This document shows positions 27,437-64,000 of a stretch of 64,000 nt of DNA, one piece after another. Position 1 is the first letter of the stretch, and every line of letters begins with the position of its first letter. The translations under genes and the position numbers were made by a program. This stretch comes from Caldilineaceae bacterium (GTDB taxonomy: Bacteria > Chloroflexota > Anaerolineae > Caldilineales > Caldilineaceae), in contig JAJEDI010000022.1 of the NCBI GenBank assembly GCA_022821585.1, forward strand, positions 1 through 64,000. The letters run 5' to 3'. The notes under the pieces are model-generated. The model saw nothing but the letters and a program-made list of their open reading frames with translations. It was not told where the DNA came from and searched no databases.

Positions 27437-27521
27437 GCGCCGGTTACTTCACCACTCTTCTCTCACTGTCGACTGGGGGTCCGCAAGAATACTCGGAACG
27501 GCGAAGTTGCTTGCAATTCGA

Positions 27522-29444: not shown

Positions 29445-29488
29445 TTCAGGATGACCCGAAAATGGGGTACAGAGGGTAAACCGAAATC

Positions 29489-29509
29489 GGGGCCGTTGGC
29501 AATGGCCCT
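29489..29509 (-). terminator. Hairpin between the Agl23-NHL and zinc-ribbon-GT39 genes
   Basis: Read on the minus strand, AGGGCCATT and AACGGCCCC form a 9 bp stem with two G-T pairs around a 3-base loop, followed by GATTTCGG. It lies in the 146 base gap that is the widest break in this gene cluster apart from the one before the zinc-ribbon-NHL gene, so it may be a partial terminator. Confidence 0.35.
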
Positions 29510-29590
29510 ATTGCAAGCAGCGGTACCCCCTTGACCGACACCTGTTACGGCGCACGTCAGTTTTTCCGTACGCCTCAGCTACCCTCAACA

Positions 29591-33004: not shown

Positions 33005-33007
33005 CGA

Positions 33008-47156: not shown

Positions 47157-47374
47157 AGAACTCTCCAAAGCGTCTGACTGTCCTCGCTGGGACTTTCTGA
47201 TTCCACACTCTCCAACTACGCGTAAAGACCCGTCACCCTTGCTCCCACACCCCTCCAGACTCCCTATCGTCACCTTCTGCGGTCGTGGTAGATTAGCAAA
47301 GACGGCCAAGCGTAGCAAATGCCGGCTGCCAGGCATCTGACCACTGAACACGAGCCACCAACCACTGCGTTTCT

Positions 47375-47433
47375 GGGCGGTCGGGCCTTCGGCCCTCCCT
47401 TGTGCAGGGGCTTCGCCCCCGCAACGCCCCCCC
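47375..47433 (+). repeat. GC-rich double-hairpin intergenic repeat, copy B (left half)
   Basis: It begins GGGCGGTCGGGCCTTCGGCC and continues with CTCCCTTGTGCAGGGGC, TTC, GCCCCCGCAACGCCCC. It matches copy A over the two hairpins but ends in a C run where copies A and C continue for another ~70 bases. Confidence 0.78.
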
Positions 47434-47711
47434 CCCGGAAACATGCCTCGGCGAAAGTGTGTCGCCATTGGTCGCTGGTGTCCAGTTGAGAGTGTCTCGG
47501 TAGACCAGGCCCTCCAGTCCTATCAAGTCTCCGCAGGTGTCGGTCTCGTGCCTGCCGCGGGCACGCCCAACTGAAGGACCTCCCGGTATGGCCGGGCTCG
47601 GCGGCGGCCCTCTGTCTCTCCAGGAGCAGGTAGTCAGTTCCAGCCGCCGCTGGCATGGGTTCCCGCCGGCTTGTTCCCACTCCAACTCTGGGATTAACCC
47701 TGCTCTGGAAT

Positions 47712-47803: not shown

Positions 47804-49258
47804 GTGGAACGCCCCCACATTCTGCTCATTACAACCGACCAGCAGCGCTTTGACGCCGCCGGCGCCGCCGCACCAGCCTTCATGCGTACGCCCCACTTCG
47901 ATCACCTGACGCGAGAGGGGATCGACTTCACGTCTGCATACGGCGACTGTCCGGTCTGCGTCCCGTCGCGAATGTCCATCATGACCGGCAAATACGTAAC
48001 TACGCACGGTATGACCGGCAACGGGCCTTCTTCACGGGCCATCCCCGACGCCAGCAATACGCTGCCCACCTGCTTGAGTAACCTGGGCTACCAGACCGCC
48101 GCCATCGGCAAGATGCACTTCACGCCCCAACGCGCCCGCCACGGCTTCCAGGAAATGATCCTCCCCGAGGACTACTACCGCCATATGGCCCGTCGCGGCT
48201 ACGACGTCCAGCCCATGCACCACGGGTTAGGCCAGAATGAGCTCTACCCGGGAATGGCCACCGTCCCCGAAGCCTTGACCCTCACCTCCTGGACCGCCGA
48301 GCAGTGTGTAGAGTACATTCGCGAACGCCGCGACCCCACCTTGCCTTTCTTCCTCTGGTGCTCCTTTTCCAAGCCGCATCCCCCGATCGATCCCCCTGAG
48401 CCCTACTACTCCATGTATCGCAACTGTGACATCCCGGCGCCCGTTTTCGGCGATTGGAGTGAAGGCAAAGATGTTCCCTACGCATTTCGCCTCATGCGCG
48501 AAAAGCAGTCCTTCGACCTCGTTCCCCCAGAAATAATCCGCGAGGCACGCGCCGCCTACTACGGCGTCATCACCCAGATCGACTACAACATGGGCCGCGT
48601 CTTCGCCGCCCTCCAGGACATGGGCATCTTCGACGATACCCTCATCATCTACACCTCCGATCACGGCGAGTACCTGGGAGACCACTGTGCCGGCGGCAAG
48701 GGCTTCTTCCATGAGTCCTCAGCCCACGTGCCCTTTGCCTTGCGCATGCCCCAGGGCTGGGACAACCGCCGGCACGGAACACGCAACCGATCTCTCGTCA
48801 CCCTCGCCGACATTCTTCCCACCGCCGTCACAGCCGCCGGTGGCACACCCCCGAACGATGTCGACGGCCTCGATCTCGTCGCCCTCGCACGAGGAGAGAT
48901 CGAGGCGCGGCCCTACTTGGAATCTGCCCTCGGCGGTCCGGACAGACCAGGCAACTTTGCCATCACCGACGGCCGCTGGAAATACATCTGGTTCCCTGTC
49001 GGCGGCAGCGAGCAACTCTTCGATCTCGACACCGATACCCAGGAACTCCGCAACCTCGCCGGCGCTGCGCAAGCCCTACCGCACCTCGAACGCCTGCGCA
49101 GTGAACTGATCGGGCGGCACCGGGCCAGGGGATCTGCAACCGTCGAAGACGGCAACTGGGTAACTCTGCCCGTGCCGCAGGAAACCGAAGCTGACCGCCG
49201 CAACACCAGCTGGCCCGGCTATCATACCGAGTTCTACCGCATCGACGTGCGCCATTGA
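47804..49258 (+). CDS. Type I sulfatase (alkaline-phosphatase superfamily)
   Basis: 484 aa. Asp12 and Gln13 (TTDQQR) open the metal site, Cys52 in CVPSR is the formylglycine precursor, and TSDHGEYLGDH near residue 285 gives the remaining metal ligands. GGAGGAG sits before the GTG at 47804, and the conserved N-terminus starts at once, so the start is secure. No signal peptide is seen. It is followed after 75 bases by an ABC-type binding protein gene on the same strand, so a shared operon is likely and the imported solute may be the sulfatase substrate. It is only a distant paralogue of the divergent sulfatase. A formylglycine-generating enzyme must exist elsewhere in the genome, as none is present here. 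Confidence 0.93.
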   Translation: MERPHILLITTDQQRFDAAGAAAPAFMRTPHFDHLTREGIDFTSAYGDCPVCVPSRMSIMTGKYVTTHGMTGNGPSSRAIPDASNTLPTCLSNLGYQTAAIGKMHFTPQRARHGFQEMILPEDYYRHMARRGYDVQPMHHGLGQNELYPGMATVPEALTLTSWTAEQCVEYIRERRDPTLPFFLWCSFSKPHPPIDPPEPYYSMYRNCDIPAPVFGDWSEGKDVPYAFRLMREKQSFDLVPPEIIREARAAYYGVITQIDYNMGRVFAALQDMGIFDDTLIIYTSDHGEYLGDHCAGGKGFFHESSAHVPFALRMPQGWDNRRHGTRNRSLVTLADILPTAVTAAGGTPPNDVDGLDLVALARGEIEARPYLESALGGPDRPGNFAITDGRWKYIWFPVGGSEQLFDLDTDTQELRNLAGAAQALPHLERLRSELIGRHRARGSATVEDGNWVTLPVPQETEADRRNTSWPGYHTEFYRIDVRH

Positions 49259-49333
49259 ATGGCATCTTTCTGCCGGAGACACCAGTTTCCATCTCCGCTT
49301 GAACTACCTACCCAACTGTTAAGGAGCTCTCTG

Positions 49334-51421
49334 ATGTTCCGAACCCCAACGAGCCGATCGAACCGCACGGCTGGGGCCGCAGGGGCCCTGCTGCTCGTGC
49401 TTGCTCTGGTCCTGTCTGCCTGCGGTGGCGGACCCGAACCTGCTGCCGAAGAGCCGGCCGCGGCAGAAGAAACCGCAAAGGACAGCGATGAAGGCGCCGG
49501 CGACGCCATGATGTCGGCCAAAGAGGCCCCGCAGCTTGCCGAAATGGTCGCCGCCGGCGACCTGCCCCCCCTCGAAGAACGGATTCCCATCGATCCACTG
49601 GTCATCGACCTGCCCTGGATCGAAGTCGGCAAATACGGGGGCACGTTGAAGCGCACGACCACCCGCAGCAATCTGCGCGATACGTCAGCCTATATGTACG
49701 GACATTCGCCATTGCACTGGGAAGAGGGCGGCACCGCTGTAGGCCCGGGTCTGGCAAAAGACTGGGAGATCAACGACGACGCCTCCGAGTGGACCTTCTA
49801 CTTCCGCGAGGGAACCAGGTGGTCCGACGGGCATCCCTTTACTGTCGATGACGTTCTCTTCTGGTGGGAGGATATGGCTGCCAATCCGGACCATCCGATG
49901 GCAATGCCGGCTTGGACGCTCGTAGGCGGCCAGCCAATGACAGCCGAGAAAATCGACGACTATACGATTCGCTTCAAATTCGTAGCGCCTGCCCCGCTGG
50001 TCGACATCGAATTGGCAGCTTTTGTCAACGGCGGGGTCTCAGGCAACTTCGGGCCCTATCCGCGCCACTACCTCGAACAGTTCCATCCGAAATACTCCGA
50101 CGCCGCCGACTATGAGGAGTTTACCGAGAAACAAGACTGGTGGAACAACCCGGATAGGCCTGTCCTGAATGCCTGGATGCCGGTCCTGCTTGAGACGGGC
50201 AACCGCATGGTCCTCGAACGCAATCCCTACTACTACGCCGTCGATACCGCCGGCAACCAGTTGCCTTATATCGACAGGTTGGAAGTGACCTACTCTGAAA
50301 ACGCCGAAGTTCTGAAGTTGCGCATCTTTAACGGCGACGTCAACTTCCACGCCCACCCCCACCTTTCCCTGCGCGACCTGGCAGTCCTCAAGGAAAACGA
50401 GTCCAAAGGCGACTATCGTGTTCTCCTTTGGGATAACGGTGCCGGTGGCGCGCCGGCCTGGGGCGTGAACTGGAACAATCCCGACGATGGCAAGCGGGCG
50501 GTCGTGCGCACAACCCAGTACCGCCGCGCCCTGTCGCACGCCATGGACCGCGAGAGAATCCGCAAAATAACCTTCCTTGGCTTGGGTGAAGCCGCCAGCA
50601 CCGGCACAATGTCTCCCAACTCCGGTCAGTTTAACCGCACCGAAAGAGGCCAGCAGATGCTGGTAGCCTGGCGCGACTCCGCCGTCGCCTACGACCCGGA
50701 ACTGGCCGCCAGCCTGCTCGACGAGATCGACGTCACCGACCAGGATGGTGACGGATTCCGTGATCTTCCCGACGGCTCGCCGCTCGAAGTTCGCATCGAC
50801 TTCCCGGCCGGCAATACCGCTTTTATCGAGACCGCCGAACTGATGGTTGAGGACTGGAAAGCAATCGGCCTCAACGCATTCGTTAACTCCATTCCGGGTT
50901 CGCAGTTGGGTGTCATGACCACCAGCGCCACCTACGACATTCGCCTCTATGGCGGCGGCGCACCGGACGGCCCCGACCTGCTCACCTATCCTGCCTGGCT
51001 CGTTTCATACGGCAGCGGCGGGCGCTGGGCTCCCTTGTACGGAGCTTGGATGGCGGCTGAAGGCACACCCAAAGAGGGCACCGAACTGGACCTCGACCCG
51101 CGCGATCGTACACCCCCGCGTGAGGAAATCCCGGTCGACGATCCCATGTACCGCATGTGGGAACTGTACAAGCAGGCAATCGCCGAGCCCGACGTCGACA
51201 AGCGCGACGAACTCACCTTCCAGATAATCCAGATTCACATCGACGAAGGTCCCTTCCTGCTGGGCGGCATCGCCGATCCACCCAACATCATTGTGGCGGG
51301 CAACTCGATCCTGAACGTTCCCACGCGCGAAGACCTTCCCCTGGGCGGCTGGCACGGTCCGGGCGTACTCGGTATGCCGGGTGCAATGACCTATCCGGAA
51401 GTTTACTTCGTTGAAGAATAG
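49334..51421 (+). CDS. ABC transporter substrate-binding lipoprotein, family 5 (SBP_bac_5)
   Basis: 695 aa extracytoplasmic solute-binding protein of the peptide/nickel/oligosaccharide (Dpp/Opp) family. AAGGAG lies 7 bases before the ATG at 49334; the frame reaches back to 49259 but that part is discarded. The signal segment ends in the lipobox LVLSAC near residue 33, followed by an Ala/Glu-rich spacer. The mature part shows family-5 hallmarks: WEINDDASEWTFYFREGTRWSDGHPFTVDDV near residue 150, and the RRALSHAMDRERI helix near 395. At almost 700 residues it is larger than standard DppA (~535), in the range of Chloroflexota homologues often linked to glycans. Neighbouring sulfatases and dehydrogenases point to a carbohydrate or sulfated product rather than peptides. 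Confidence 0.92.
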   Translation: MFRTPTSRSNRTAGAAGALLLVLALVLSACGGGPEPAAEEPAAAEETAKDSDEGAGDAMMSAKEAPQLAEMVAAGDLPPLEERIPIDPLVIDLPWIEVGKYGGTLKRTTTRSNLRDTSAYMYGHSPLHWEEGGTAVGPGLAKDWEINDDASEWTFYFREGTRWSDGHPFTVDDVLFWWEDMAANPDHPMAMPAWTLVGGQPMTAEKIDDYTIRFKFVAPAPLVDIELAAFVNGGVSGNFGPYPRHYLEQFHPKYSDAADYEEFTEKQDWWNNPDRPVLNAWMPVLLETGNRMVLERNPYYYAVDTAGNQLPYIDRLEVTYSENAEVLKLRIFNGDVNFHAHPHLSLRDLAVLKENESKGDYRVLLWDNGAGGAPAWGVNWNNPDDGKRAVVRTTQYRRALSHAMDRERIRKITFLGLGEAASTGTMSPNSGQFNRTERGQQMLVAWRDSAVAYDPELAASLLDEIDVTDQDGDGFRDLPDGSPLEVRIDFPAGNTAFIETAELMVEDWKAIGLNAFVNSIPGSQLGVMTTSATYDIRLYGGGAPDGPDLLTYPAWLVSYGSGGRWAPLYGAWMAAEGTPKEGTELDLDPRDRTPPREEIPVDDPMYRMWELYKQAIAEPDVDKRDELTFQIIQIHIDEGPFLLGGIADPPNIIVAGNSILNVPTREDLPLGGWHGPGVLGMPGAMTYPEVYFVEE

Positions 51422-51718: not shown

Positions 51719-52702
51719 TTGCAAGGATTCATCGTCCCGCGCTTTCTCTATATGCTGGTTACGATGTTCTTCGTCTCGATCGTAGGCTTCGTGATCATCA
51801 ATCTTCCGCCCGGCTCCTACTTGGATGTCTATCGAGAACAGCTGGAAGCTCAGGGGACTACGACCACCGCAAGCCAGCTCGAAACCATCGTGAACCAATA
51901 CGGCCTCGATCAGCCGATTTACGTGCAGTACTGGAAGTGGGTCTCCGGCTTTGTCCAGGGAGACTTCGGTCGGTCGTTCGCCTACAACAAGGATGTAAGC
52001 GAACTGATCTGGGAACGGCTGACGTTGACAATGGTTATCTCAATCACAACCCTCATTGTGACTTGGCTGATCGCTATCCCAATCGGCATCTATTCGGCTA
52101 CTCACCAGTACCAGGCCAGCGACCACTTCTTTACTACCGTTGGCATGATTGGCCTCTCAATCCCCAACTTCCTCCTTGCTCTCATCTTCATGGTCATCGC
52201 CGCCATGGTCTTCGATCAATCTGTAGGAGGGCTCTTTTCGCCCGAATACCAGGACGCTCCCTGGAACTTCGCCAAGCTGTGGGACCTCCTGAAACACATG
52301 TGGATCCCCGTCCTCGTGGTCGGCACCTCCGGCACTGCCGGGCTGATCCGGATGATGCGCGGCAATCTGCTCGACGTCCTCAAAATCGCCTACATCACCT
52401 CCGCCCGCGCCAAGGGTCTCCCCGAGCGGCGGGTCATCTTCGTACACGCAGTACGTAACGCCATCCATCCTCTTGTAATGATTCTCGGCACCAGCCTGCC
52501 GCAAATCATCTCGGGCGCAACCATCGTGTCGATGGTGCTGAGCCTTCCCACAACGGGACCGCTCTACTTCACTGCCCTTCTCGAGCAGGATATGTATCTG
52601 GCCGGCACATTCCTCGTCTTTCTTGCCGGGCTCCTGGTTATCGGCAATTTCCTGGCCGACATCCTGCTCGTCTGGATCGATCCCCGCATCCGTTACACCT
52701 GA
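51719..52702 (+). CDS. ABC transporter permease, DppB/OppB type
   Basis: 327 aa inner-membrane channel subunit of a Dpp/Opp-type importer with six hydrophobic segments. The loop that docks on the ATPase has the EAA motif (AYITSARAKGLPERRVIFVHAVRNA). A large loop follows the first helix (PGSYLDVYREQLEAQG and onward) as usual in DppB. It starts at TTG; GGAGG lies 6 bases upstream and the hydrophobic N-terminus begins directly. It ends 2 bases before the second permease gene, so both are translated together. Confidence 0.92.
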   Translation: MQGFIVPRFLYMLVTMFFVSIVGFVIINLPPGSYLDVYREQLEAQGTTTTASQLETIVNQYGLDQPIYVQYWKWVSGFVQGDFGRSFAYNKDVSELIWERLTLTMVISITTLIVTWLIAIPIGIYSATHQYQASDHFFTTVGMIGLSIPNFLLALIFMVIAAMVFDQSVGGLFSPEYQDAPWNFAKLWDLLKHMWIPVLVVGTSGTAGLIRMMRGNLLDVLKIAYITSARAKGLPERRVIFVHAVRNAIHPLVMILGTSLPQIISGATIVSMVLSLPTTGPLYFTALLEQDMYLAGTFLVFLAGLLVIGNFLADILLVWIDPRIRYT

Positions 52703-52704
52703 CC

Positions 52705-53838
52705 ATGGCGACGAGCGCAACAACCGTTAATTTGCTTTCCAGCCAAGAGGCCCGCGAGACCACGGCCATCTCCCCTGCCCGCCTAATCGGCCGCCGCTTC
52801 CTCCGTAACAAGCTTGCCATCGGCGGCGGCATTATCCTCGTTCTCCTTTACACCTCAGCCCTCTTTGCCGATTTTATCGCCCCTGTTCGCTATAATGAAG
52901 TCCACGAAGACTACGTGTTTGTCCCGCCCCAGCTGCCCCGCTTTCGCGACGAACAAGGGAACTTTCACCTGCGCCCCTTTGTCTACGGGATGGAAAGCGA
53001 ACTCGACATGGACACCTTTCGCTTCGTATATAGCGAGATCCATGAAGAAAAATATCCCATAAAGTTCTTTGTTGAAGGATACGAATACAAACTCTTTGGA
53101 CTCATCCCCTTCAACCGGCACCTCTACGGGGTCGACGCGCCTGGCGTATTCTATCTATTGGGCAGCGACGATCTGGGCCACGATATGGTGGCCCGCGTCT
53201 TCAAGGGAGCTAAGATTTCTCTGACAATCGGGTTGGTTGGCGTCATCCTGACCATCATATTCGGCGCCACCCTCGGCACAATCTCTGGCTTCTACGGCGG
53301 CGGCCTCGACACGATAATCCAGCGCATCATAGAATTCCTGATGTCTTTCCCTGCCATCCCTCTGTGGGCCGCGCTCGCCGCAGCCATGCCGCCTAACTGG
53401 TCCCCCCTGCAGCGTTTCTTCGCCATCTCCGTTATCCTCTCCCTGATCGAATGGACCGGCTTGGCGCGGCAGGTCCGCGCCAAAGTGCTCTCCTTCCGTG
53501 AGATGGAATACACGCTCGCCGCCAGGGCCGCCGGCGCCTCCGACGCCCGCATCATCTTCCGACACATGCTCCCCAACGCCTTCAGCCACATCATCGTCGT
53601 TGCCACCCTCGCCATCCCCGGCATGATTCTCGCCGAAACCGCCCTCAGCTTTCTCGGCCTCGGCATCCAGCCCCCGCAGACCAGTTGGGGCGCCCTCCTC
53701 AAACAAGCCCAGTTGGTGAGCGTCCTCCTCCAGCAGCCCTGGCTCCTGATCCCTGCCTTCTTCGTCATCGCCGCCGTCCTCACCTTCAACTTTGTCGGCG
53801 ACGGCCTCCGCGATGCCGTCGATCCCTATTCACTGTGA
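52705..53838 (+). CDS. ABC transporter permease, DppC/OppC type
   Basis: 377 aa second channel subunit. An N-terminal cytoplasmic stretch and first helix (GGIILVLLYTSALFADFIAP) are followed by an unusually long extracytoplasmic region (~55-145) and then the DppC core with GSDDLGHDMVARVFKGAKISL, the usual GTDxxGRDxxSR-like signature in modified form. The EAA motif is EYTLAARAAGASDARIIFRH. The ending is FNFVGDGLRDAVDP, typical of DppC. The ATPase genes (dppD, dppF) that normally follow are absent; a lipoprotein sugar dehydrogenase gene comes next. ATPases must be supplied from elsewhere. Confidence 0.93.
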   Translation: MATSATTVNLLSSQEARETTAISPARLIGRRFLRNKLAIGGGIILVLLYTSALFADFIAPVRYNEVHEDYVFVPPQLPRFRDEQGNFHLRPFVYGMESELDMDTFRFVYSEIHEEKYPIKFFVEGYEYKLFGLIPFNRHLYGVDAPGVFYLLGSDDLGHDMVARVFKGAKISLTIGLVGVILTIIFGATLGTISGFYGGGLDTIIQRIIEFLMSFPAIPLWAALAAAMPPNWSPLQRFFAISVILSLIEWTGLARQVRAKVLSFREMEYTLAARAAGASDARIIFRHMLPNAFSHIIVVATLAIPGMILAETALSFLGLGIQPPQTSWGALLKQAQLVSVLLQQPWLLIPAFFVIAAVLTFNFVGDGLRDAVDPYSL

Positions 53839-53950: not shown

Positions 53951-55714
53951 ATGCAATCTGAGTCAGCGCGTAGAGCGAACGCCACGCCCACACCAGCCAA
54001 CTCTTTGCTGATCCTCCTCGTCTGCTTCCTTGTGCCCACGGGAGCCTGCTTTCCAGCTTCCCTGTCGATTGGCTCAGACTCCATCCCTGGTGAAACCGGT
54101 TCGGCAGCTGCACAGAGTTCCGCTGCAAGCCTGTCTCTTTCGCTGTCCCGTGCAGGTTCGAGAGCCGGCGCGACGCAGATGCACCCGCCTCTAGGAAAGG
54201 ACATCACCGCTCAGGCCAAAGGCCTGTCCTACAAAAGAGGTGATGGCGGACGCCAAGTGATCGATGACCAGGCATTCTTGGCCCTCGACGGCGATCCGGA
54301 GACCATATGGAATTCCGGCCAACCTGCACCGCAGTGGTACGCTATTGTTCTTGATCAGCCATATGAAGTTGACAGGGTGGAAATGGTCGTAACCCAATTT
54401 CCTCCAGGCAGCACCACACATGAGCTCTGGATCGGCAACGGCTCGGGAGTTCGCACGCTCTACCGAAGACTTTCCGACCTCCACACCGAAGACGGTCAAA
54501 CTCTGGTCGTGGATATCGAACCTCCATTGCTGGCCAGCGAACTGGTGATTCTGACCACCCACAGTACAAGCTGGGTTGCCTGGCGCGAATTTCGCGTCTT
54601 CGGTATCAAGCCTCTCGACTCCGCTTCGGAACTGAAGCAGCCCCCTTTGGCAGCCAGGAAATTCGCGACCGGGTTGAAATTCCCGGTCCAGATTACACAC
54701 GCCGGAGACGGTACCGACCGCATCTTCGTCGTCGAGCAACAGGGGCGCATCAGAACTATCGAAGCTGGCAGCGTCACTGATCAGCACTACTTGGATATAT
54801 CTCACCGCGTGAGTTGCTGCCAGGAACGGGGTATGTTCAATGTGGCCTTCCCTCCTTCCTATGCCGAAGATCGGACCCTCTTCGTGAGCTACTCCAATCT
54901 GGCAGGTGATACGGTTATCAGCCGTTTTGCGGCATCTGGTGAACCGGAGAGAGTCGATCCCCATAGCGAAGAAACGCTTTTGGTCCTGCACCAACCGGGC
55001 AAAATTCACAACGGAGGCCACCTCGCATTTGGACCGAGAGACGGGTTTCTCTACATTGGAAGCGGCGACGGCGGTCTCTGGCATCAAGACAGAGCCCAGA
55101 ATCCTGTTTCCCTGTTGGGCAAAATCCTTCGCATCGATGTAACTGGTACGCAGCGGCCCTACGGTGTGCCTGCCGGCAACCCCTATACCTCAGTGGACGG
55201 GTTCCTTGACGAAATCTGGGCCTTGGGCCTTCGTAATCCTTGGGGATTCGCATTCGACAAAAAAACGGGTGACCTGTTCATTCCGGACACCGGCCACATA
55301 AAACGCGAAGAGGTCAACTTTCAGCCCGCCTCCAGCAAAGGGGGAGAGAACTATGGTTGGCTCCTTCGCGAAGGCACGATATGCTTCGAGTTGTGGCACT
55401 GTGGTATGGAACAAGACAAGCTGCACTCGCCTGTGGCCGAGTACGACCGCTCTCAAGGCTGTGCCATCGTGGGCGGCGTAGTCTATCGCAACAACGGCGG
55501 CAGGGATCTGCAGGGACGCTTCCTGTTTGCCGACTTCTGCAGCGGCCGCATCTGGGGACTCAAAAGGCCCCAACCGATCTACGACAAAATGTGGCAAGCT
55601 GAGCTGGTTGCCGAAGCGGGCGTTCCCATAAGTAGTATAGGTGAAGACGAAAAAGGGAATGTCTATGCCACCGGCTACCAGGATGGTGTTCTCTATCTGC
55701 TTGAAGAGAAATAA
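53951..55714 (+). CDS. Lipoprotein: discoidin-like domain + PQQ-type sugar dehydrogenase (module 1)
   Basis: 587 aa. The ATG at 53951 has AGGAG 9 bases upstream; an earlier ATG at 53792 overlaps the permease gene and is rejected. The signal segment ends PTGAC, a slightly unusual lipobox. Residues ~65-225 are an F5/8-type C (discoidin)-like domain (FLALDGDPETIWNSGQ, VAWREFRVFG), often carbohydrate-binding. Residues ~235-585 match the glucose/sorbosone dehydrogenase beta-propeller of the YliI/Asd family: ITHAGDGTDRIFVVEQQGRI, HNGGHLAFGPRDGFLYIGSGDGG, LGLRNPWGFAFD, and EEVNFQPAS. The catalytic-type His and Arg are present. A CC pair precedes RGMFNVAFPPS. It probably oxidises sugars at the cell surface with PQQ. 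First of five modules in tandem. Confidence 0.88.
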   Translation: MQSESARRANATPTPANSLLILLVCFLVPTGACFPASLSIGSDSIPGETGSAAAQSSAASLSLSLSRAGSRAGATQMHPPLGKDITAQAKGLSYKRGDGGRQVIDDQAFLALDGDPETIWNSGQPAPQWYAIVLDQPYEVDRVEMVVTQFPPGSTTHELWIGNGSGVRTLYRRLSDLHTEDGQTLVVDIEPPLLASELVILTTHSTSWVAWREFRVFGIKPLDSASELKQPPLAARKFATGLKFPVQITHAGDGTDRIFVVEQQGRIRTIEAGSVTDQHYLDISHRVSCCQERGMFNVAFPPSYAEDRTLFVSYSNLAGDTVISRFAASGEPERVDPHSEETLLVLHQPGKIHNGGHLAFGPRDGFLYIGSGDGGLWHQDRAQNPVSLLGKILRIDVTGTQRPYGVPAGNPYTSVDGFLDEIWALGLRNPWGFAFDKKTGDLFIPDTGHIKREEVNFQPASSKGGENYGWLLREGTICFELWHCGMEQDKLHSPVAEYDRSQGCAIVGGVVYRNNGGRDLQGRFLFADFCSGRIWGLKRPQPIYDKMWQAELVAEAGVPISSIGEDEKGNVYATGYQDGVLYLLEEK

Positions 55715-55807
55715 GCAGAAGAAAACTACACCCCCAGCGATCGCCCGGAGAGCAGTAGGACATAAGAAAATCAAGTGAGACTTGCTGCGGACGTCCAGAG
55801 GAATGAA

Positions 55808-57553
55808 TTGAAACATCCGACCTTTGTCATACGAGCCCTGACACTGGCTCTGTTCACGCTGGCTGCAATTGCCTGCTCATCAACCGAGCAGGATGGTCGA
55901 ACCGGAATCGCGACCTCAGCCTCTTCGGCAGATGGCGCACGGCTCACCATCTCTGTATCTCCAGCCGAACCGCCATACTCACCGGCAAGACATGGCCCGC
56001 CCCTTGGCCAGAATATCGCGCCCCTGGCATCAGGGCTCGCCTACATCAGGGGAGACGAAGGCCACCTCGTAGAAGATGAGCAAGCCTACTTGGCCATCGA
56101 CGGCAACCCGGATACGATCTGGAGCTCCAGGCAGCCAGCCCCACAGTCCTACACAATAGTCCTGGACCAACCCTACCTTGTGGACAGGTTGGAGATGGTC
56201 GTAACCCAGTCTCCCCCGGGCCCCACGACCCACGAAATATGGCTCGGTCACGGTTCAGGTCTCCACACTTTCTATAAACGACTCGCAGATGTCCATACCG
56301 AGGATGGGCAGACTCTCGCTATCCCTGTCGAACCCTCTGAGACTGTATACGAAATAGTGATTCGCACCCTTCACAGCCCAAGTTGGGTGGCTTGGCGTGA
56401 ATTCCGGGTCTTCGGGAGCCAGCCTGTAAGCGCAGAATCGGGAGAAAACGGACTCCCCTTTGAGATCGCAGAAGTCGCAACGGGGCTGCAGTATCCTGTC
56501 CGGGTAGCCCACGCCGGCGACGGAAGCGGGCGGATCTTCTTAGTCGAACTACCAGGGCGCATCCGCATCATTGCTAACGGCGTTGTAGAAGACAACCCCT
56601 TCCTGGACATCACCGAGCGCGTAAACTGCTGCGTCGGCGAACGCGGCCTCTTCGGTCTGGCATTTCCTCCTTCCTATCCCGGCTCCAGGCGCTTCTATGT
56701 GAGTTACACCAACCGCGATGGCGCCACCATTGTTAGCCGCTTCAATACGACCGACGACCCCAATCGAGCGGACGAAAACAGCGAGGAGATACTGCTCACA
56801 ATTGACCAGCCGCACCAGAATCACAATGGAGGGCACCTGGCCTTTGGTCCACACGACGGTTTTCTCTACATCGGCAGTGGCGACGGCGGACTTCCCCGCG
56901 ATCCCGAGAACCGCGGCCAGACGACGGATTCCTTGCTTGGGAAGCTACTTCGCATCGACGTCGAATCAGGCGTTGCTCCCTACCAGGTACCTGCCTCCAA
57001 TCCCTTCGTAGACGCCACTGGCTACCGACCCGAAATCTGGGCCCTCGGCCTTCGCAATCCCTGGGGCTTTGCCTTCGACAGCCTGAGCGGCGATCTCTAT
57101 CTGCCCGATACAGGCAACTTCAAACGCGAAGAGGTCAACTACCAGCCGGCCGGCAGTCCCGGAGGACAAAACTATGGCTGGCCCGTTATGGAAGGCAGCA
57201 TCTGTTTCGAGCACGATACTCTCTCCTGCACTGCCGAAGGCCTCACCTTGCCGGTAGCCGAATACGACCACACCCGCGGATGTGCAATCGTTGGCGGGGT
57301 CCTCTACGCCGGAGACAAACTACCCGGTCTCCAGGGCACATTCATTGTCGCCGACTACTGTACTGGTCACATCTGGGGAATCGAGCGGTCGGATGCGGCT
57401 GGGTCTCGAGGCAAAAAGACCAGCTGGCACAGTACACTGTTGGCCAAGGCAGGCATGCCGGTCAGCAGTGTGGGAACGGACGAGCAGGGCAATGTCTACT
57501 TCACTGGCTATGCCAAAGATAAGGGCGTTCTGTTTATCCTCAATCATAGGTAA
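55808..57553 (+). CDS. Lipoprotein: discoidin-like domain + PQQ-type sugar dehydrogenase (module 2)
   Basis: 581 aa paralogue of the preceding protein with the same domain order. The frame opens at GTG 55775, but a TTG at 55808 with AGAGGA 5 bases upstream gives a clean signal peptide ending in the lipobox AAIAC, so it is preferred. The discoidin-like part (~60-220) includes YLAIDGNPDTIWSSRQ and VAWREFRVFG. The dehydrogenase part (~225-580) has HAGDGSGRIFLVELPGRI, NHNGGHLAFGPHDGFLYIGSGDGG, LGLRNPWGFAFD and EEVNYQPAG. The vicinal cysteines are in VNCCVGERGLFG. Conserved single Cys lie in RGCAIVGG and DYCTGHIWG. The gene begins 93 bases after module 1. Confidence 0.88.
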   Translation: MKHPTFVIRALTLALFTLAAIACSSTEQDGRTGIATSASSADGARLTISVSPAEPPYSPARHGPPLGQNIAPLASGLAYIRGDEGHLVEDEQAYLAIDGNPDTIWSSRQPAPQSYTIVLDQPYLVDRLEMVVTQSPPGPTTHEIWLGHGSGLHTFYKRLADVHTEDGQTLAIPVEPSETVYEIVIRTLHSPSWVAWREFRVFGSQPVSAESGENGLPFEIAEVATGLQYPVRVAHAGDGSGRIFLVELPGRIRIIANGVVEDNPFLDITERVNCCVGERGLFGLAFPPSYPGSRRFYVSYTNRDGATIVSRFNTTDDPNRADENSEEILLTIDQPHQNHNGGHLAFGPHDGFLYIGSGDGGLPRDPENRGQTTDSLLGKLLRIDVESGVAPYQVPASNPFVDATGYRPEIWALGLRNPWGFAFDSLSGDLYLPDTGNFKREEVNYQPAGSPGGQNYGWPVMEGSICFEHDTLSCTAEGLTLPVAEYDHTRGCAIVGGVLYAGDKLPGLQGTFIVADYCTGHIWGIERSDAAGSRGKKTSWHSTLLAKAGMPVSSVGTDEQGNVYFTGYAKDKGVLFILNHR

Positions 57554-58084
57554 CTCTGGATTCTGCGAATTGCCGGAAACCATTTACTGCCGGGAATATG
57601 AGCTGCCCCCCTGGCAATACTCCTTTGGAGCAATTGACCTGGTATCTGTGTCGTGACTACAAAGTCCCTGCCATATGGCTGCAATAATTCAGAGAAAGAA
57701 AAGTCTCCTCTCTCCCCACTCCTCTTCCCTCTTTCCTCCCCATTGGGCGGTCGGCCGCAAGCGGCCTCCCTTGTGCGGGGGCACCGCCCCCGCAACGCCC
57801 CCGGCCCAACTCCCGCCGCAGCGAGTGTGAGGGCAATATGACGTTGGCGACCCGCTGCGGCCCGCGCTTCCCCCCATCCAGTCTCTCGACTCATTCCGAG
57901 CGTGAGCCGGCTCAAGCTATGCAGGCGCGAAAACGCCCCATTGGGCCCAACGTGTTCCGATGTTGCCCCCCAAGGGCGCGATACCGAATTACTGACAGTC
58001 CCCCTTTTGAATTCGGATCTGGGCAGACCGCAAATGTTCGCACACCGGTTGTGGCTTGGTCGTTACAGCAAATGAAATGACTCC
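57554..58084. other. Intergenic region with GC-rich repeat inside the dehydrogenase array
   Basis: This 531 base gap separates modules 2 and 3. It contains full-length copy C of the GC-rich repeat (57745-57875). The rest shows no gene, and no clear promoter for the downstream 3.2 kb gene was found. Confidence 0.5.
57745..57875 (+). repeat. GC-rich double-hairpin intergenic repeat, copy C
   Basis: It starts GGGCGGTCGGCCGCAAGCGGCC, continues with CTCCCTTGTGCGGGGGC, ACC, GCCCCCGCAACGCCCC, and keeps the long right part (CGGCCCAACTCCCGCCGCAG, TGTGAGGGCAATATGAC). The first stem has compensating base changes relative to copy A (GGCCG-CAAG-CGGCC against GGGCC-TATTC-GGCCC), which suggests that the structure is kept by selection. 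Confidence 0.8.
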
Positions 58085-61000
58085 ATGAACAGAATCTTCG
58101 GCCTTCTCGTACTGGGGCTGTCCGCCTTGATTGCAGTGGCCTGTGACTCAGCCTCCCAGGCCCCCCAGGTCGAGGGGTCGCCGGCCCCGATCGCCAGCCT
58201 CAACCTCTCGGTTTCGCCCGCAGCAGCCTGGACGGCCTCCCCTTTCGGATCCCCGCCCTTGGGAGAAAACGTGGCACTGCAGGGGTACGCAACTGCCTCT
58301 GCACGAGATGCCGCCGGCCTCCTGGCCGTTGACGCCGTGACCGCGCATCTGGCGATCGACGGCGATTCTTCCTCCGTTTGGAGCTCACAGCAACCGGCTC
58401 CTCAGTGGTTCTCCGTCGCTCTCGACGGGCTCCATCTGGTGAATCGCATCCAGTTGGAGGTTACGCAGGCGCCTGCGGGTGCCACGACGCACGAAATATG
58501 GCTGGGAAATGGTTCCGGCAGTCGGACCCTATTTGCACGGCTATCCGATGTATACACGGACGACGGTCAGCTGCTTGACGTAGAGATCGATCCTCCCCGG
58601 GCCGTCGACGAGGTCTTCATACTTACACTCGACAGCCCTAGCTGGGTGGCATGGCGCGAGATCAGTGTATTCGGCCTTCCCGTGACCGAACCGCTGACCT
58701 TGGACGAGAAGCCTCGACTGACGCTTCAAGCCATCGCTTCCGGACTGGAAATGCCCGTACAGGTCACCCACGCCGGCGACCGGAGCGGGCGCCTCTTCGT
58801 AGCTGAAAAAGAAGGACGCATCCGCATCGTCAAAGATGGCTCAGCCCTGGCAACCCCATTCCTCGACATCTCTGATCGCGTCCGCTGTTGCGTGCACCGG
58901 GGCCTGTTCGACATTGCCTTCCCGCCCTCGCCCGGCACACCAGGACACTTCTATGTCAGCTACACCAACGCCGAAGGCCACACCGTTATCAGCCGCTTCC
59001 GCATTTCTCGGAATCCCGATAAGGCCGACCCCGAAAGTGAAGAAACTGTCCTGTTAATCGAGCAGCCCGCCGAACATCACAACGGCGGCCACATGGCATT
59101 CGGCCCGCAAGACGGATACCTCTATATCTCCAGCGGCGATGGCGGCTCCTTCAGCTATCCCGAGAACCCGGCACTGGAAAGTGACACACTGCTGAGTAAG
59201 CTTCTTCGCATAGATGTAGAGTCAGGCGCCAAACCATATCGTATTCCCGACAGCAATCCCTTCGCCCACACAAGCGGCTACCGCGGTGAGATCTGGGCAC
59301 TGGGGCTGCGCAATCCCGGCAACTTCGCCTTTGACGAGAAGACCGGGGATCTCTTCATCCTCGATTCGGGGCACCGCCGTCGCGAAGAAATCAACTTCCA
59401 ACCCGCGTCCAGCCCAGGAGGCGAAGACTATGGCTGGTTCAAAATGGAGGCGAACCTCTGTTTCAACAACTTCGTCGTCCCCTGCAGCGCCGAATCTCTG
59501 ACTCTGCCGGTAGCCGAATACGACCACTCGCAGGGCTGCGCTATCTCCGGCGGTGCCGTCCACCGTGGCCTTGGCTCTCCCGAACTGCATGGACTCTTCT
59601 TCTTCGCCGACTTCTGTAGCGGTCGTATATGGGGTCTGAAGCGACCCGATCCCCCCATGAGAACGGGATGGATGAGTACGCTCCTGATGAACGTGCCATT
59701 CTCGATCAGTAGCATCGGGCAGGACGAAGTCGGCAATCTCTATGTCACCAGCTTTGACGATGGCGTCCTCTACCAGCTGACCGAGAGAACTGTTTCCTCG
59801 ACTGGCGGCATGGACGTCCGCGAAAACGTCGCCCTGCGCGGATCGGGTCGAGCGTCTGCCCAAGTCGGCTCCATTGAACTTGCTACTGACGGAGATCCGG
59901 CCACCGGCTGGGAATCTGAAAAACTCCCGCCTCAGTGGTTCTCGGTCCTCCTCGATGACCTCTACTTGCTCGATCGGATTGAACTGGTATTTCCCCCCGG
60001 CGCCCGCGGGCCCGCAACCCTTGAGCTCTGGTTGGGCAACGAATCCGGAACACGTACTCTCTTTAAGCGTTTCGACCAAATCTGGCCCGGCAGCGAACGC
60101 CTGCTGGCCATCCCCATAGAACCGCCCCAAGTCGCCAACGAAGTCTTGCTGCTCTCTCTGCAAGGTCAGGATAAAGTCGCCTGGCAGGAAGTCAGGGTCT
60201 TCGGCTCCTCCTCTGCCTACCTGCAAGCGCAAAGTACTGTGCCTCAGGTCCGCCTCGCCGCGAGCGTTACCGGCCTCGAACTTCCAGTTCTGATTGCGCA
60301 TGCGGGTGACGGCAGCGGCCGAATCTTCATAGCCGAGCAGAAAGGACGGATTCGCATCCTGAAAGATGGTCGCCTTCTGGATTCCCCCTTTCTCGACATT
60401 ACCGACAGCATCGCCTGCTGTGGAGAGCAAGGCCTGTTCGGACTCGCCTTCCCTCCATCCTATCACCAGAGCCGGCACTTCTACGTCAGCTACTCGAATC
60501 CCGACGGCGATACCATTGTCAGCCGCTTCAGGACAACTGATCACCCCGATAGAGCAAACCGCGACTCCGAGGAAGTCCTCTTGAAACTCGAGCAACCCTA
60601 CAAGGTTCACAACGGCGGCCACCTGGCTTTCGGACCCCTTGACGGCTTCCTTTACGTCGGCAGTGGCGATGGGGGCACCTTCCGCGATCCCGACAACATG
60701 GCGCAGAGACCGGACACACTACTCGGAAAGATCCTGCGAATCGACGTGGAATCCGGCAACCTGCCCTACGCTGTCCCGAATGACAATCCATTCGTCCACG
60801 CAGATGGCTATCGTGGAGAAATCTGGGCCCTGGGCCTCCGAAATCCTTGGGGCTTTGCCTTTGATCCGGAATCCGGTGATCTCTTCATTCCCGATGTGGG
60901 AGGTAGCCTGCGTGAAGAGGTTAACTTTCAGCCCGCGAGCAGCGCAGCGGGAAGAAATTTCGGCTGGGCTGTGATGGAGGGCAACATCTGCTTCGAGCAT

Positions 61001-61333
61001 GACTTCCTCATCTGCAACGCCGAGGGTCTAACCTCCCCCGTCGCCGAATACGACCATGCCCAGGGCTGCGCCGTCGTCGGCGGAGCGGTCTACAGGGGGA
61101 CCGCCATCCCCGCCTTGAACGGACTCTTCCTCTTCGCCGATTTCTGCCGCGGTGACATATGGGGTCTCAGGCGTGCCGTAAACACATCAAACGGCACAGC
61201 TGAAATAAGGTGGGAGAGCGCCCTGCTCGCAAACGCCGGCTTCCCTGTAAGCAGCATTGGGGAAGACGAAGAGGGCAACGTCTACGCCGCCGGTTACCAG
61301 GATGGTACAATCTATATGATCACTTCGAAATAG
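58085..61333 (+). CDS. Double-module lipoprotein: two discoidin-like + sugar dehydrogenase units in one chain (modules 3 and 4)
   Basis: 1082 aa. The signal peptide ends in the lipobox IAVAC (Cys near residue 19). Unit one spans ~45-570 and unit two ~577-1082, each a discoidin-like domain plus a glucose/sorbosone dehydrogenase propeller. Unit two lacks a signal peptide and follows directly after the YQLTER end of unit one, so two former genes have fused head to tail. Unit one deviates: HHNGGHMAFGP is intact but LGLRNPGNFAFD replaces LGLRNPWGFAFD and LDSGHRRREEINFQ replaces the PDTG form. Unit two is canonical (VHNGGHLAFGPLDGFLYVGSGDGG, LGLRNPWGFAFD). Both keep the CC pair before the GLF motif (RVRCCVHRGLFD; SIACCGEQGLFG). 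The start ATG at 58085 is well placed for the signal peptide. Confidence 0.9.
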   Translation: MNRIFGLLVLGLSALIAVACDSASQAPQVEGSPAPIASLNLSVSPAAAWTASPFGSPPLGENVALQGYATASARDAAGLLAVDAVTAHLAIDGDSSSVWSSQQPAPQWFSVALDGLHLVNRIQLEVTQAPAGATTHEIWLGNGSGSRTLFARLSDVYTDDGQLLDVEIDPPRAVDEVFILTLDSPSWVAWREISVFGLPVTEPLTLDEKPRLTLQAIASGLEMPVQVTHAGDRSGRLFVAEKEGRIRIVKDGSALATPFLDISDRVRCCVHRGLFDIAFPPSPGTPGHFYVSYTNAEGHTVISRFRISRNPDKADPESEETVLLIEQPAEHHNGGHMAFGPQDGYLYISSGDGGSFSYPENPALESDTLLSKLLRIDVESGAKPYRIPDSNPFAHTSGYRGEIWALGLRNPGNFAFDEKTGDLFILDSGHRRREEINFQPASSPGGEDYGWFKMEANLCFNNFVVPCSAESLTLPVAEYDHSQGCAISGGAVHRGLGSPELHGLFFFADFCSGRIWGLKRPDPPMRTGWMSTLLMNVPFSISSIGQDEVGNLYVTSFDDGVLYQLTERTVSSTGGMDVRENVALRGSGRASAQVGSIELATDGDPATGWESEKLPPQWFSVLLDDLYLLDRIELVFPPGARGPATLELWLGNESGTRTLFKRFDQIWPGSERLLAIPIEPPQVANEVLLLSLQGQDKVAWQEVRVFGSSSAYLQAQSTVPQVRLAASVTGLELPVLIAHAGDGSGRIFIAEQKGRIRILKDGRLLDSPFLDITDSIACCGEQGLFGLAFPPSYHQSRHFYVSYSNPDGDTIVSRFRTTDHPDRANRDSEEVLLKLEQPYKVHNGGHLAFGPLDGFLYVGSGDGGTFRDPDNMAQRPDTLLGKILRIDVESGNLPYAVPNDNPFVHADGYRGEIWALGLRNPWGFAFDPESGDLFIPDVGGSLREEVNFQPASSAAGRNFGWAVMEGNICFEHDFLICNAEGLTSPVAEYDHAQGCAVVGGAVYRGTAIPALNGLFLFADFCRGDIWGLRRAVNTSNGTAEIRWESALLANAGFPVSSIGEDEEGNVYAAGYQDGTIYMITSK

Positions 61334-61449
61334 TCCGCCGGCATTCGCATCGAAGCTCTTGGCCCAATCCCTTCTGGCACTTTGAACCGACTTCAACAAA
61401 GCCGTCCCGCCGTCTACAAGGCCAACCTGTCCCACCGAATGAACCCTCT

Positions 61450-63189
61450 ATGAAACACGCAGTCTCGCTGGCAGGTCTGCTACTGATACTGACACTCTTG
61501 ACTGCCTGCGCAGCACAGTCGGGGTTGGAACGTTCAACGGAATCGGAGCCGGTTACCCCGAAATTCACGCAAACAGCTAACCCGGCAACCATCCCCGCGC
61601 CAACCCCGACACCGGCGCCGTCTCCCACCAATACCCCTGCGCCGGTACCCCTTAGTCCGAATGTCGCCATCCATGGAACCGCGAGCGCCTCCACAGGTGA
61701 AGAGCGGGTCCGATTTGCCATCGATGGCGATCCTGAAACATTTTGGAGTGCTCAGGACCATCCCGCGCAGTGGATCTCAATAGCGCTCGATAAACTCTAT
61801 CTCGCAGAGCGCATAGAGCTTGTTGTAGCTCAGGCTCCCCCCGGACCAACGACACACTTCTTGTGGGTCGACAACGGCTCTGGCGTGCGCACACGATTCA
61901 AACAACTCACCGACATCCACACCGAAGATGGGCAGACGCTCTCATTCGATTTCGATCCCCCGCGACCCGTCAGGGGAATCCTGATTCAGACACTTGAAGG
62001 TCCAAGCTGGGTCGCATGGCGGGAAGTAAGAGTCTTTGGTTCGACCATTACCCCACAAAATGAACATGGGACGGCCCCGCAGTTGCGCCTCGAGAAAGTC
62101 CTCGACCAGCTGGTGCTGCCGGTGCAAGTTACCCATGCCGGCGACGGCAGCGGACGGCTCTTCGTCGTGGAGCAACAAGGGCGCATCACGATCGTCAAAG
62201 ACGGAGTGGCCAACAAAACCCTCTTCCTGGATATCACCGATCGAGCCAACTGCTGCGAAGAACGGGGTCTCTTCAACGTCGCCTTTCCTCCATCATTCCA
62301 GGCCAGCCGGCAATTCTATCTGAGCTATTCGGATTCCAATGACGATACCGTCATCAGCCGCTTCACCATGACCGATGACCTCGACATCGCCGATCCGGCT
62401 AGTGAGGAAATCCTTCCCATCGTCGCTCAGCCGCACCATGTCCACAATGGTGGCCGGCTTGCCTTCGGCCCGAATGACGGCTACCTTTACTTTGGATTGG
62501 GAGACGGGGGAAGCGATGGTCACCCTGTCCCCTTCCCGCAAGACCCGAATCTTCTGCTTGGGAAAATACTGCGGATCGATGTGGAATCAGGTGTCCACCC
62601 CTATGCAATCCCCGCCAGCAATCCATTCGTCGCCGACGAAGAATTCCGCGACGAAATTTGGGCGCTCGGGCTCAGAAACCCTTGGGGCTTCGCCTTCGAC
62701 GATCAGACGGGGGAACTCTATATCCCCGATGCGGGACACAATAATCGCGAAGAACTCAACTTCCAGCCTGCCTCAAGCAACGGTGGCGAAAACTACGGGT
62801 GGCCCACACTAGAGGGTACCCGCTGCCCCGGGTTTGAACATCTGCCCTTTCACTGTCACCAGGCCGCTATGTTCGTGCACCCGATAGCCGAATACGATCA
62901 CACGCGCGGTTGTGCAATAGTAGGCGGCATCGTCTACCGCGGCAGCGAACTGCCCCGCCTCACAGGCCGTTTCCTCTTCGCCGATTTCTGCCGCGGTGAC
63001 ATCTGGAGCCTGCAGTACGTTGGCGCAGCGGAAGGGAACTCTTCAAATCGGGACAGCTTTGAAAGATGGCAGAGCGAACTGGTCTTGAGTGCTTCCGTAC
63101 CGGTTAGCAGCATCGGCGAAGATGAAGACGGAAATCTCTTCGTTACTGGCTACGCCGACGGCACCGTATACCTGCTGACTACAGAATAG
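61450..63189 (+). CDS. Lipoprotein: discoidin-like domain + PQQ-type sugar dehydrogenase (module 5)
   Basis: 579 aa. The frame runs back to 61210 inside the upstream gene, but the ATG at 61450 starts a clear signal peptide with the lipobox LLTAC. A proline-rich linker (PAPTPTPAPSPTNTPAP) follows, as in the PTDTP lipoprotein near 11.4 kb. The discoidin-like part is ~65-215 (FAIDGDPETFWSAQD, VAWREVRVFG) and the dehydrogenase ~220-579. The sugar-binding segment reads VHNGGRLAFGPNDGYLYFGLGDGG: the second His of HNGGH is Arg, and SGDGG has become LGDGG. LGLRNPWGFAFD is kept. The CC pair is in RANCCEERGLFN. An extra Cys-containing loop (RCPGFEHLPFHCHQ) is unique to this copy. It may have changed specificity or activity. 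Confidence 0.88.
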   Translation: MKHAVSLAGLLLILTLLTACAAQSGLERSTESEPVTPKFTQTANPATIPAPTPTPAPSPTNTPAPVPLSPNVAIHGTASASTGEERVRFAIDGDPETFWSAQDHPAQWISIALDKLYLAERIELVVAQAPPGPTTHFLWVDNGSGVRTRFKQLTDIHTEDGQTLSFDFDPPRPVRGILIQTLEGPSWVAWREVRVFGSTITPQNEHGTAPQLRLEKVLDQLVLPVQVTHAGDGSGRLFVVEQQGRITIVKDGVANKTLFLDITDRANCCEERGLFNVAFPPSFQASRQFYLSYSDSNDDTVISRFTMTDDLDIADPASEEILPIVAQPHHVHNGGRLAFGPNDGYLYFGLGDGGSDGHPVPFPQDPNLLLGKILRIDVESGVHPYAIPASNPFVADEEFRDEIWALGLRNPWGFAFDDQTGELYIPDAGHNNREELNFQPASSNGGENYGWPTLEGTRCPGFEHLPFHCHQAAMFVHPIAEYDHTRGCAIVGGIVYRGSELPRLTGRFLFADFCRGDIWSLQYVGAAEGNSSNRDSFERWQSELVLSASVPVSSIGEDEDGNLFVTGYADGTVYLLTTE

Positions 63190-63414
63190 GCAATCTGTAT
63201 CTCCACGCAACGCACTTGGACCAACCTCCAAACGAGGGCATGACGAGCATAACCGGGATCAAGACCTGGTCCGGAAAAAGCTCCTCACCCGAAACGATGA
63301 GTAGATGCTTGGCAACGATTCGTTCATGAAGTATGGACGGCGATCACATGTTCCCGTGCAAGTAGCTCTGAACGCAACAAGACTGAGGACCAAAAGTACA
63401 AAGGAGGCTTGGCG

Positions 63415-64000
63415 ATGCCAAAGGAACGTCCCAACATCCTCTGGTTCTGCTCAGACCAGCAGAGATTCGACACGATTCACGCACTGGGCAATCCCTACAT
63501 CAACACGCCCAACCTCGATCGGCTCGTCGCCGAAGGCGTCGCCTTTACCCACGCTTTCTGCCAGAGTCCCATCTGCACGCCGAGCCGTGCCAGCTTTCTC
63601 ACCGGCCGCTACCCCGGCAACGTCCGCGGCTGCATGAACGGCAACGAAGAGTGGGGCGAAGGCGCTCCCCTCGTCACTGCCCTGCTCGCCGAGAGCGGCT
63701 ACGACTGCGGCCTCAGCGGAAAGTTCCACCTTGCCGGCGCCCACGGCCGCGAAGAACCGCGCCCTAAGGACGACGGATACCGCGTCTTCCACTGGAGTCA
63801 TGACCCGCAGGATCGCTACCCCTCCGGACATGCCTACGCAGACTGGCTCGCCGGTCAGGGATACTCTCTTCGAGACCTGAGAGAAGATCCCGCCTCCATC
63901 CCCCCCGAGCTGCACCAGACCACCTGGTGTGCCGACCGCGCCATAGATTTCCTGTCCGAAAAGCGCCGCAAAGGCCCCTGGCTGATGAGCATCAACGTCT
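63415..64000 (+). CDS. Type I sulfatase, 3' part beyond the window
   Basis: Partial: the first 195 codons, open to the edge of the window. AAGGAGG lies 7 bases before the ATG at 63415, an ideal start. The N-terminus MPKERPNILWFCSDQQRFDT has the metal-binding Asp14-Gln15. TPNLDRL near 31 and PICTPSRASFLTGRYP around Cys54 are the sulfatase signature, Cys54 being the formylglycine precursor. YDCGLSGKFHLAG near residue 95 is the next conserved block. It is closer in motif form to the plus-strand sulfatase at 47.8 kb than to the minus-strand one (CTPSR against CVPSR in both). It follows the dehydrogenase array by 225 bases on the same strand. Confidence 0.93.
   Translation, partial: MPKERPNILWFCSDQQRFDTIHALGNPYINTPNLDRLVAEGVAFTHAFCQSPICTPSRASFLTGRYPGNVRGCMNGNEEWGEGAPLVTALLAESGYDCGLSGKFHLAGAHGREEPRPKDDGYRVFHWSHDPQDRYPSGHAYADWLAGQGYSLRDLREDPASIPPELHQTTWCADRAIDFLSEKRRKGPWLMSINV

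Follow-up and report, generated by a model that had tools for sequence, protein, structure and literature searches.

The locus described here raises the question of what is achieved by five copies of one two-domain module, each joining a discoidin domain to a GSDH propeller, when they are encoded by four consecutive lipoprotein genes placed between an ABC importer and sulfatases. The window, i.e., the whole 64,000-nucleotide stretch of DNA that was analysed, belongs to a 5.5 Mb genome, and the genus comprises 17 genomes, this one and 16 more. A member of the genus, MPML01 bin5, was recovered from the sponge Aplysina aerophoba (PMC5649159); with the host verified for bin5, we infer a mainly sponge-associated life for the genus. 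Sponge Caldilineae have been reported to be rich in arylsulfatases and have been proposed as users or degraders of glycosaminoglycans (PMC6306507). The genome carrying the window returned 41 sulfatase matches.

Organisation of the Array and of the Flanking Genes

The genes of the locus were assigned as follows, the modules of the array being numbered M1 to M5:

45675..47468, minus strand: sulfatase A, divergent from the array; choline-sulfatase-like, below the NCBIfam cut-off
47804..49258, plus strand: sulfatase B, type I, with a C-x-P-S-R motif (CVPSR)
49259..51421, plus strand: solute-binding protein of the ABC importer, family 5 (SBP_bac_5); genus orthologues 85-95% identical
51719..52702, plus strand: permease 1 of the ABC importer, oligopeptide type
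52705..53838, plus strand: permease 2 of the ABC importer, OppC type
53951..55714, plus strand: M1, lipoprotein; discoidin domain at 54188-54607, then GSDH propeller
55775..57553, plus strand: M2, lipoprotein; discoidin domain at 56000-56419, then GSDH propeller
58085..59809, plus strand: M3, first half of a double gene, with lipoprotein signal; discoidin domain at 58256-58678, then GSDH propeller with altered pocket, His replacing Glu289 and Gly replacing Trp430 in M2 numbers
59810..61333, plus strand: M4, second half of the double gene; discoidin domain at 59813-60208, then GSDH propeller
61450..63189, plus strand: M5, lipoprotein; discoidin domain at 61648-62043, then GSDH propeller
63409..64000, plus strand: sulfatase C, cut by the window end and running to contig position 64944 (L040, 1410-2945)

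Open reading frames, Pfam searches and alignments bore out the preliminary description of positions 53951-63189 as four consecutive plus-strand genes carrying five repeats of a single discoidin and GSDH module, the third gene (58085-61333) being a double gene that holds M3 and M4. The longest open reading frames of M1 and M5 start at TTG 53792 and GTG 61210 respectively, and the real start of sulfatase A probably lies within its open reading frame. The five modules could be aligned end to end with pairwise identities of 48-57%, as expected for the paralogous and well-diverged copies that had been proposed. Each gene had also been credited with its own lipoprotein signal, and a N-terminal hydrophobic stretch with a lipobox-like Cys was indeed present in all four, ending in ...VPTGAC (gene 1, the weakest), ...LAAIAC (gene 2), ...LIAVAC (gene 3) and ...LLTAC (gene 4). 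Genus-wide, a lipobox-like N-terminus was found in 59 of 71 discoidin and GSDH gene models, the remainder being mostly truncated or provided with mis-called starts.

The GSDH and discoidin assignments were examined by profile searches. All five propellers matched Pfam GSDH (PF07995) far above the cut-off of 25 bits, with scores of 139, 155, 283 and 153 bits for genes 1 to 4, the third value referring to the double gene. Genes 3 and 4 exceeded the cut-off of the Pfam discoidin model (PF00754, 28.2 bits) and genes 1 and 2 scored 25.1 and 21.9 bits; the five discoidin copies, including the two below the cut-off, are mutually homologous. An AlphaFold model of M2 showed a mean pLDDT of 86.

Past sulfatase C, the opposite strand carries a second importer region with permeases, a SBP-5 protein, a GHL10-like protein and a DHDPS-family protein, whose nearest match, below cut-off, is 5-dehydro-4-deoxyglucarate dehydratase. 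Two related proteins of this region (L040:3017-11149) are 35% identical, one being GHL10-like and the other having no Pfam match. Elsewhere in the window, the minus strand encodes large proteins with zinc-ribbon, PMT_2 mannosyltransferase, PA14 and NHL/SGL-like repeats (23117-34954).

Conservation of the Locus within the Genus

The position of the array between an ABC importer and sulfatases, already pointed out in the preliminary description, proved to be syntenic throughout the genus. The array is linked to the orthologous importer in 15 of the 17 genomes and directly follows it in 14; in G003 the contig is broken, with the modules placed after the second permease and the binding protein located on a different contig. 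On all contigs that extend past the array, the third sulfatase comes next, followed by the second importer region. Two genomes without the importer (G010 and G012) carry modules solely in other contexts; a module pair at L059:7655-11215 and in L135 occurs in a different context common to both. Such importers were also detected without modules in two genomes of other genera (G020 and G031). An assembly artefact or a chance array was ruled out by the conservation of the array and its presence in the single-contig assemblies G004, G011 and G015.

All 17 genus genomes contain the discoidin type of the array, and a search of 29 further family genomes gave no match. Among 400 sampled Chloroflexota, 16 others carry it, with one matching place each, joined to GSDH in two. 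The distribution between the genus and the rest of the family, with two GSDH fusions outside, ruled out a family- or phylum-wide system.

Modules also occur as solo genes. A Lake Baikal Chloroflexi genome encodes one solo discoidin and GSDH lipoprotein, with no sulfatase or importer recognised alongside as judged from the list of open reading frames alone. In the genome carrying the window, solo lipoproteins that combine a pair of discoidin domains with a single GSDH propeller were found at L042:6607-8739, adjoining FAD-linked oxidase and zinc dehydrogenase genes, and at L043:7422-9734, adjoining riboflavin-synthesis and zinc dehydrogenase genes; no sulfatase occurred among the neighbours examined. 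The proposed co-occurrence with importer and sulfatases was thus found genus-wide for the array and failed for the solo copies of this genome and of Lake Baikal, indicating that the link is a property of the array and not of every module.

Evolution of the Copies

The arrays contain from three (G002) to seven (G004) modules. In a tree of 86 propellers, M1, M2, M3, M4 and M5 each formed their own clade across species; this grouping by array position into five separate orthologous clades places the origin of the paralogues before the radiation of the genus. Orthologues of M1 and M2 were recovered in 7 and 12 genomes respectively. A recent duplication was ruled out genus-wide by the same grouping and holds for G004 only, whose seven near-alike modules fall into one clade (SH-aLRT 99) and were independently amplified or homogenised at this same site. 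Decay was observed as well: G001 retains a decayed remnant of one module, and module 6 at the array ends of G007 and G013 (L050 and L051) is a decaying copy with in-frame stop codons, the G008 copy being uninterrupted. Comparison of G000 with G014 by the NG86 method gave dN/dS values of 0.16-0.21 for the array genes, which are under purifying selection, and of 0.06-0.08 for the importer and sulfatase genes.

The variable copy number, the G001 remnant, the interrupted module 6 and the near-alike copies of G004 might be taken to indicate that the copies serve mainly gene dosage or are neutral tandem duplications, without division of labour. However, the maintenance of five orthologous clades throughout the genus, at about 50% identity and under purifying selection, makes this explanation very improbable.

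Active Site Residues and the Question of PQQ

The residues of sGDH were mapped onto the modules via YliI and by profile comparison, as long insertions misplace the C-terminal third in a direct sGDH alignment, and columns were counted over 110 aligned propellers using M2 numbering. The catalytic His (His350, sGDH His144) and Arg (Arg427, sGDH Arg228) are present in 110/110 sequences and the catalytic Asn (Asn428, sGDH Asn229) in 108/110; the Gly of the Ca/PQQ loop is also retained. At the three basic PQQ anchors, the Lys377 column is occupied by Cys in 106/110 propellers, otherwise by Val or Ala and never by Lys or Arg, the Arg406 column mostly by Pro, Ser or Ala with no Lys or Arg in 110, and the Arg408 column by Ser in 104/110 and by Arg once. 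YliI shows Lys, Arg and Arg at these columns. Contig 34 of the same genome encodes a GSDH propeller with a C-terminal cytochrome c (L041:5104-7218), in which the three columns read Arg, Arg and Arg, i.e., canonical basic anchors.

The conserved cysteines tend to occur in pairs. A vicinal Cys-Cys just before the sGDH Gln76 column is present in 98 propellers and absent from 12, with no mixed cases; Cys503 and Cys529, the latter corresponding to the Lys377 column, are both present in 105, both missing in 4 and mixed in 1, and Cys477 and Cys485 occur together in 92 and mixed in 11. This paired pattern suggests disulfides. A vicinal disulfide can form part of the wall of a sugar or PQQ site, which for these propellers is just a lead. 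Among the M3 orthologues, Glu289 is changed to His in 11/12 and Trp430 to Gly in 10/12, Asn428 is lost in 2/12, and M3 is fused ahead of M4 in every species possessing these orthologues; with its altered pocket, M3 may have turned mainly into a binding module. Relatives with approximately 50-55% propeller identity from Nitrospira, Acidobacteria, Binatia, Deltaproteobacteria and Nitrosomonas (L122-L133) likewise show the triad without the anchors, most of them with the Cys-Cys.

A profile search for PqqC returned no match in any of the 17 genus genomes; the same model scored over its cut-off in 8 of 251 sampled Chloroflexota, demonstrating that it works in this phylum. All PqqE matches were far below cut-off. 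The cytochrome c-fused GSDH therefore likely uses outside PQQ. The modules scored 46-84 bits with NCBIfam TIGR03606, whose cut-off is 434.55; the cytochrome c-fused GSDH fails this strict model too.

Comparison with Known Systems

HHIP was the best solved match by sequence, with 188 bits in the profile comparison against 104 for YliI, and gave the best Foldseek E-value, with a TM over target of 0.66 (HHIP has extra domains) versus 0.81-0.83 for Asd-type enzymes. The designation of the propellers as PQQ-type dehydrogenases in the preliminary description found no support, since every module has other residues at the anchor positions, HHIP is the closest solved structure and PqqC was found in no genus genome. 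Anchor loss and PqqC absence argue against canonical PQQ use, although short of proof in view of the AA12 precedent considered below, and the label "PQQ dehydrogenase" is unsafe for the array propellers.

The HHIP propeller (2wft, 3ho3, 7pgm) lacks the PQQ anchors as well and binds sulfated glycans, heparin and sucrose octasulfate being bound at surface sites of HHIP-C (PMC8660895). Unlike the modules, HHIP is devoid of the active-site Arg and Asn, carries CRD and EGF domains but no discoidin domain, and binds hedgehog; a Pfam search of the modules gave discoidin and GSDH only, with no CRD or EGF domains. The sGDH/Asd enzymes (YliI from E. coli, 2g8s; P. aerophilum, 3a9g; Acinetobacter sGDH, 1c9u) share the Pfam GSDH family, the six-bladed propeller and the catalytic His, Arg and Asn, whereas the modules have Cys, Pro and Ser in place of Lys377, Arg406 and Arg408 and add three conserved Cys pairs, a discoidin domain, a lipoprotein signal and the tandem arrangement.

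CAZy family AA12 (Coprinopsis CcPDH, Trichoderma 6h7t) comprises propeller oxidoreductases of the same fold, and CcPDH is also joined to a carbohydrate-binding domain; in contrast to the modules, these proteins are fungal, solo and retain two PQQ arginines. Assignment of the modules to AA12 was discarded, the Foldseek match (E 9e-12, TM 0.61 over target) being weaker than those of Asd, sGDH and HHIP. Galactose oxidase, also found by Foldseek, similarly places a CBM32/discoidin domain N-terminal to a propeller, but the latter is a seven-bladed Kelch propeller with copper and unrelated chemistry. The sulfatase-rich, polysaccharide-utilisation-like glycan loci of sponge symbionts likewise combine sulfatases, importers and surface proteins, whereas no SusC/SusD was seen among the array neighbours and the propeller array stands where lyases or hydrolases would be. 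A limited open-access literature search returned no description of such an array.

Possible Function of the Array

The explanation that we favour, tentatively and at a little less than an even chance, is that the array encodes surface-tethered glycan-binding propellers of a sulfated-glycan locus, which are probably enzymatic and not canonical PQQ enzymes. The products would be secreted, membrane-tethered proteins with a CBM32-like discoidin sugar-binding domain and a six-bladed GSDH-fold propeller, forming with the flanking sulfatases and the two importers a surface locus for a sulfated glycan of the host or the matrix. At the cell surface, the discoidin domains would hold this glycan, the sulfatases would strip its sulfate, the propellers would act on the exposed sugar units and the importers would take up the resulting products, the array positions being probably specialised for different sugar ends or linkages. 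Domain layout, synteny, the pattern of residues, the age of the paralogues and purifying selection are observed, and we infer each functional step, namely sugar binding, catalysis, glycan type and division of labour. The neighbouring three sulfatases, two SBP-5 importers, GHL10-like and DHDPS-family proteins count in favour of a glycan locus; against it count the missing PQQ anchors, the closeness to HHIP, a binding protein, the frequent transport of peptides by SBP-5 proteins and the lack of a sulfatase among the examined neighbours of the solo modules. The propellers are most likely still catalytic, because the active-site His, Arg and Asn of GSDH are almost invariant, but they do not bind PQQ through the established anchors.

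Alternatively, the propellers might be devoid of catalysis and, in the manner of HHIP, serve for glycan binding or adhesion, with the array attaching to the sponge matrix as a multivalent lectin on the cell surface. The closest solved match is itself a binding protein that holds heparin and sucrose octasulfate (PMC8660895), the PQQ anchors are lost, the M3 pocket is altered and every copy contains a discoidin domain; on the other hand, retention of the three catalytic residues in 108-110 of 110 propellers is hard to explain without chemistry, HHIP having lost two of them, and we consider this explanation rather unlikely, if still a serious one. Ordinary PQQ-dependent sugar dehydrogenases, holding environmental PQQ by other residues, would fit the fold, the catalytic triad, the Gly retained in the Ca/PQQ loop and the presence in the same genome of the cytochrome c-fused GSDH, which keeps canonical anchors and would need outside PQQ too. 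Many bacteria with PQQ enzymes make no PQQ themselves. Moreover, fungal AA12 depends on PQQ despite missing several bacterial PQQ residues, Lys377 included (PMC4133262, PMC6881789), but it retains two of its three arginines common to bacterial enzymes (PMC6881789), whereas Lys or Arg occurs in the modules at none of the Lys377 and Arg406 positions and in 1/110 at Arg408. Together with the PqqC, PqqE and TIGR03606 results, this makes ordinary PQQ enzymes doubtful.

A bolder reading may also be put forward. The GSDH triad may have been kept while the PQQ anchors were exchanged for Cys pairs, one of them the vicinal Cys-Cys beside the pocket, hence another cofactor or mechanism, and the genus would then have amplified an array of differently specific surface enzymes for sulfated sponge-matrix glycans. 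To this reading we assign a low probability.

A match to Pfam GSDH routinely earns a protein the name of PQQ-dependent sugar dehydrogenase. As the triad without anchors and the paired cysteines are also found in Nitrospira, Acidobacteria, Binatia and others, the PQQ label may mislead for a broad group of proteins. The array provides a concrete, expressible set of proteins with which the capture of sulfated host glycans by sponge-type Chloroflexota can be studied.
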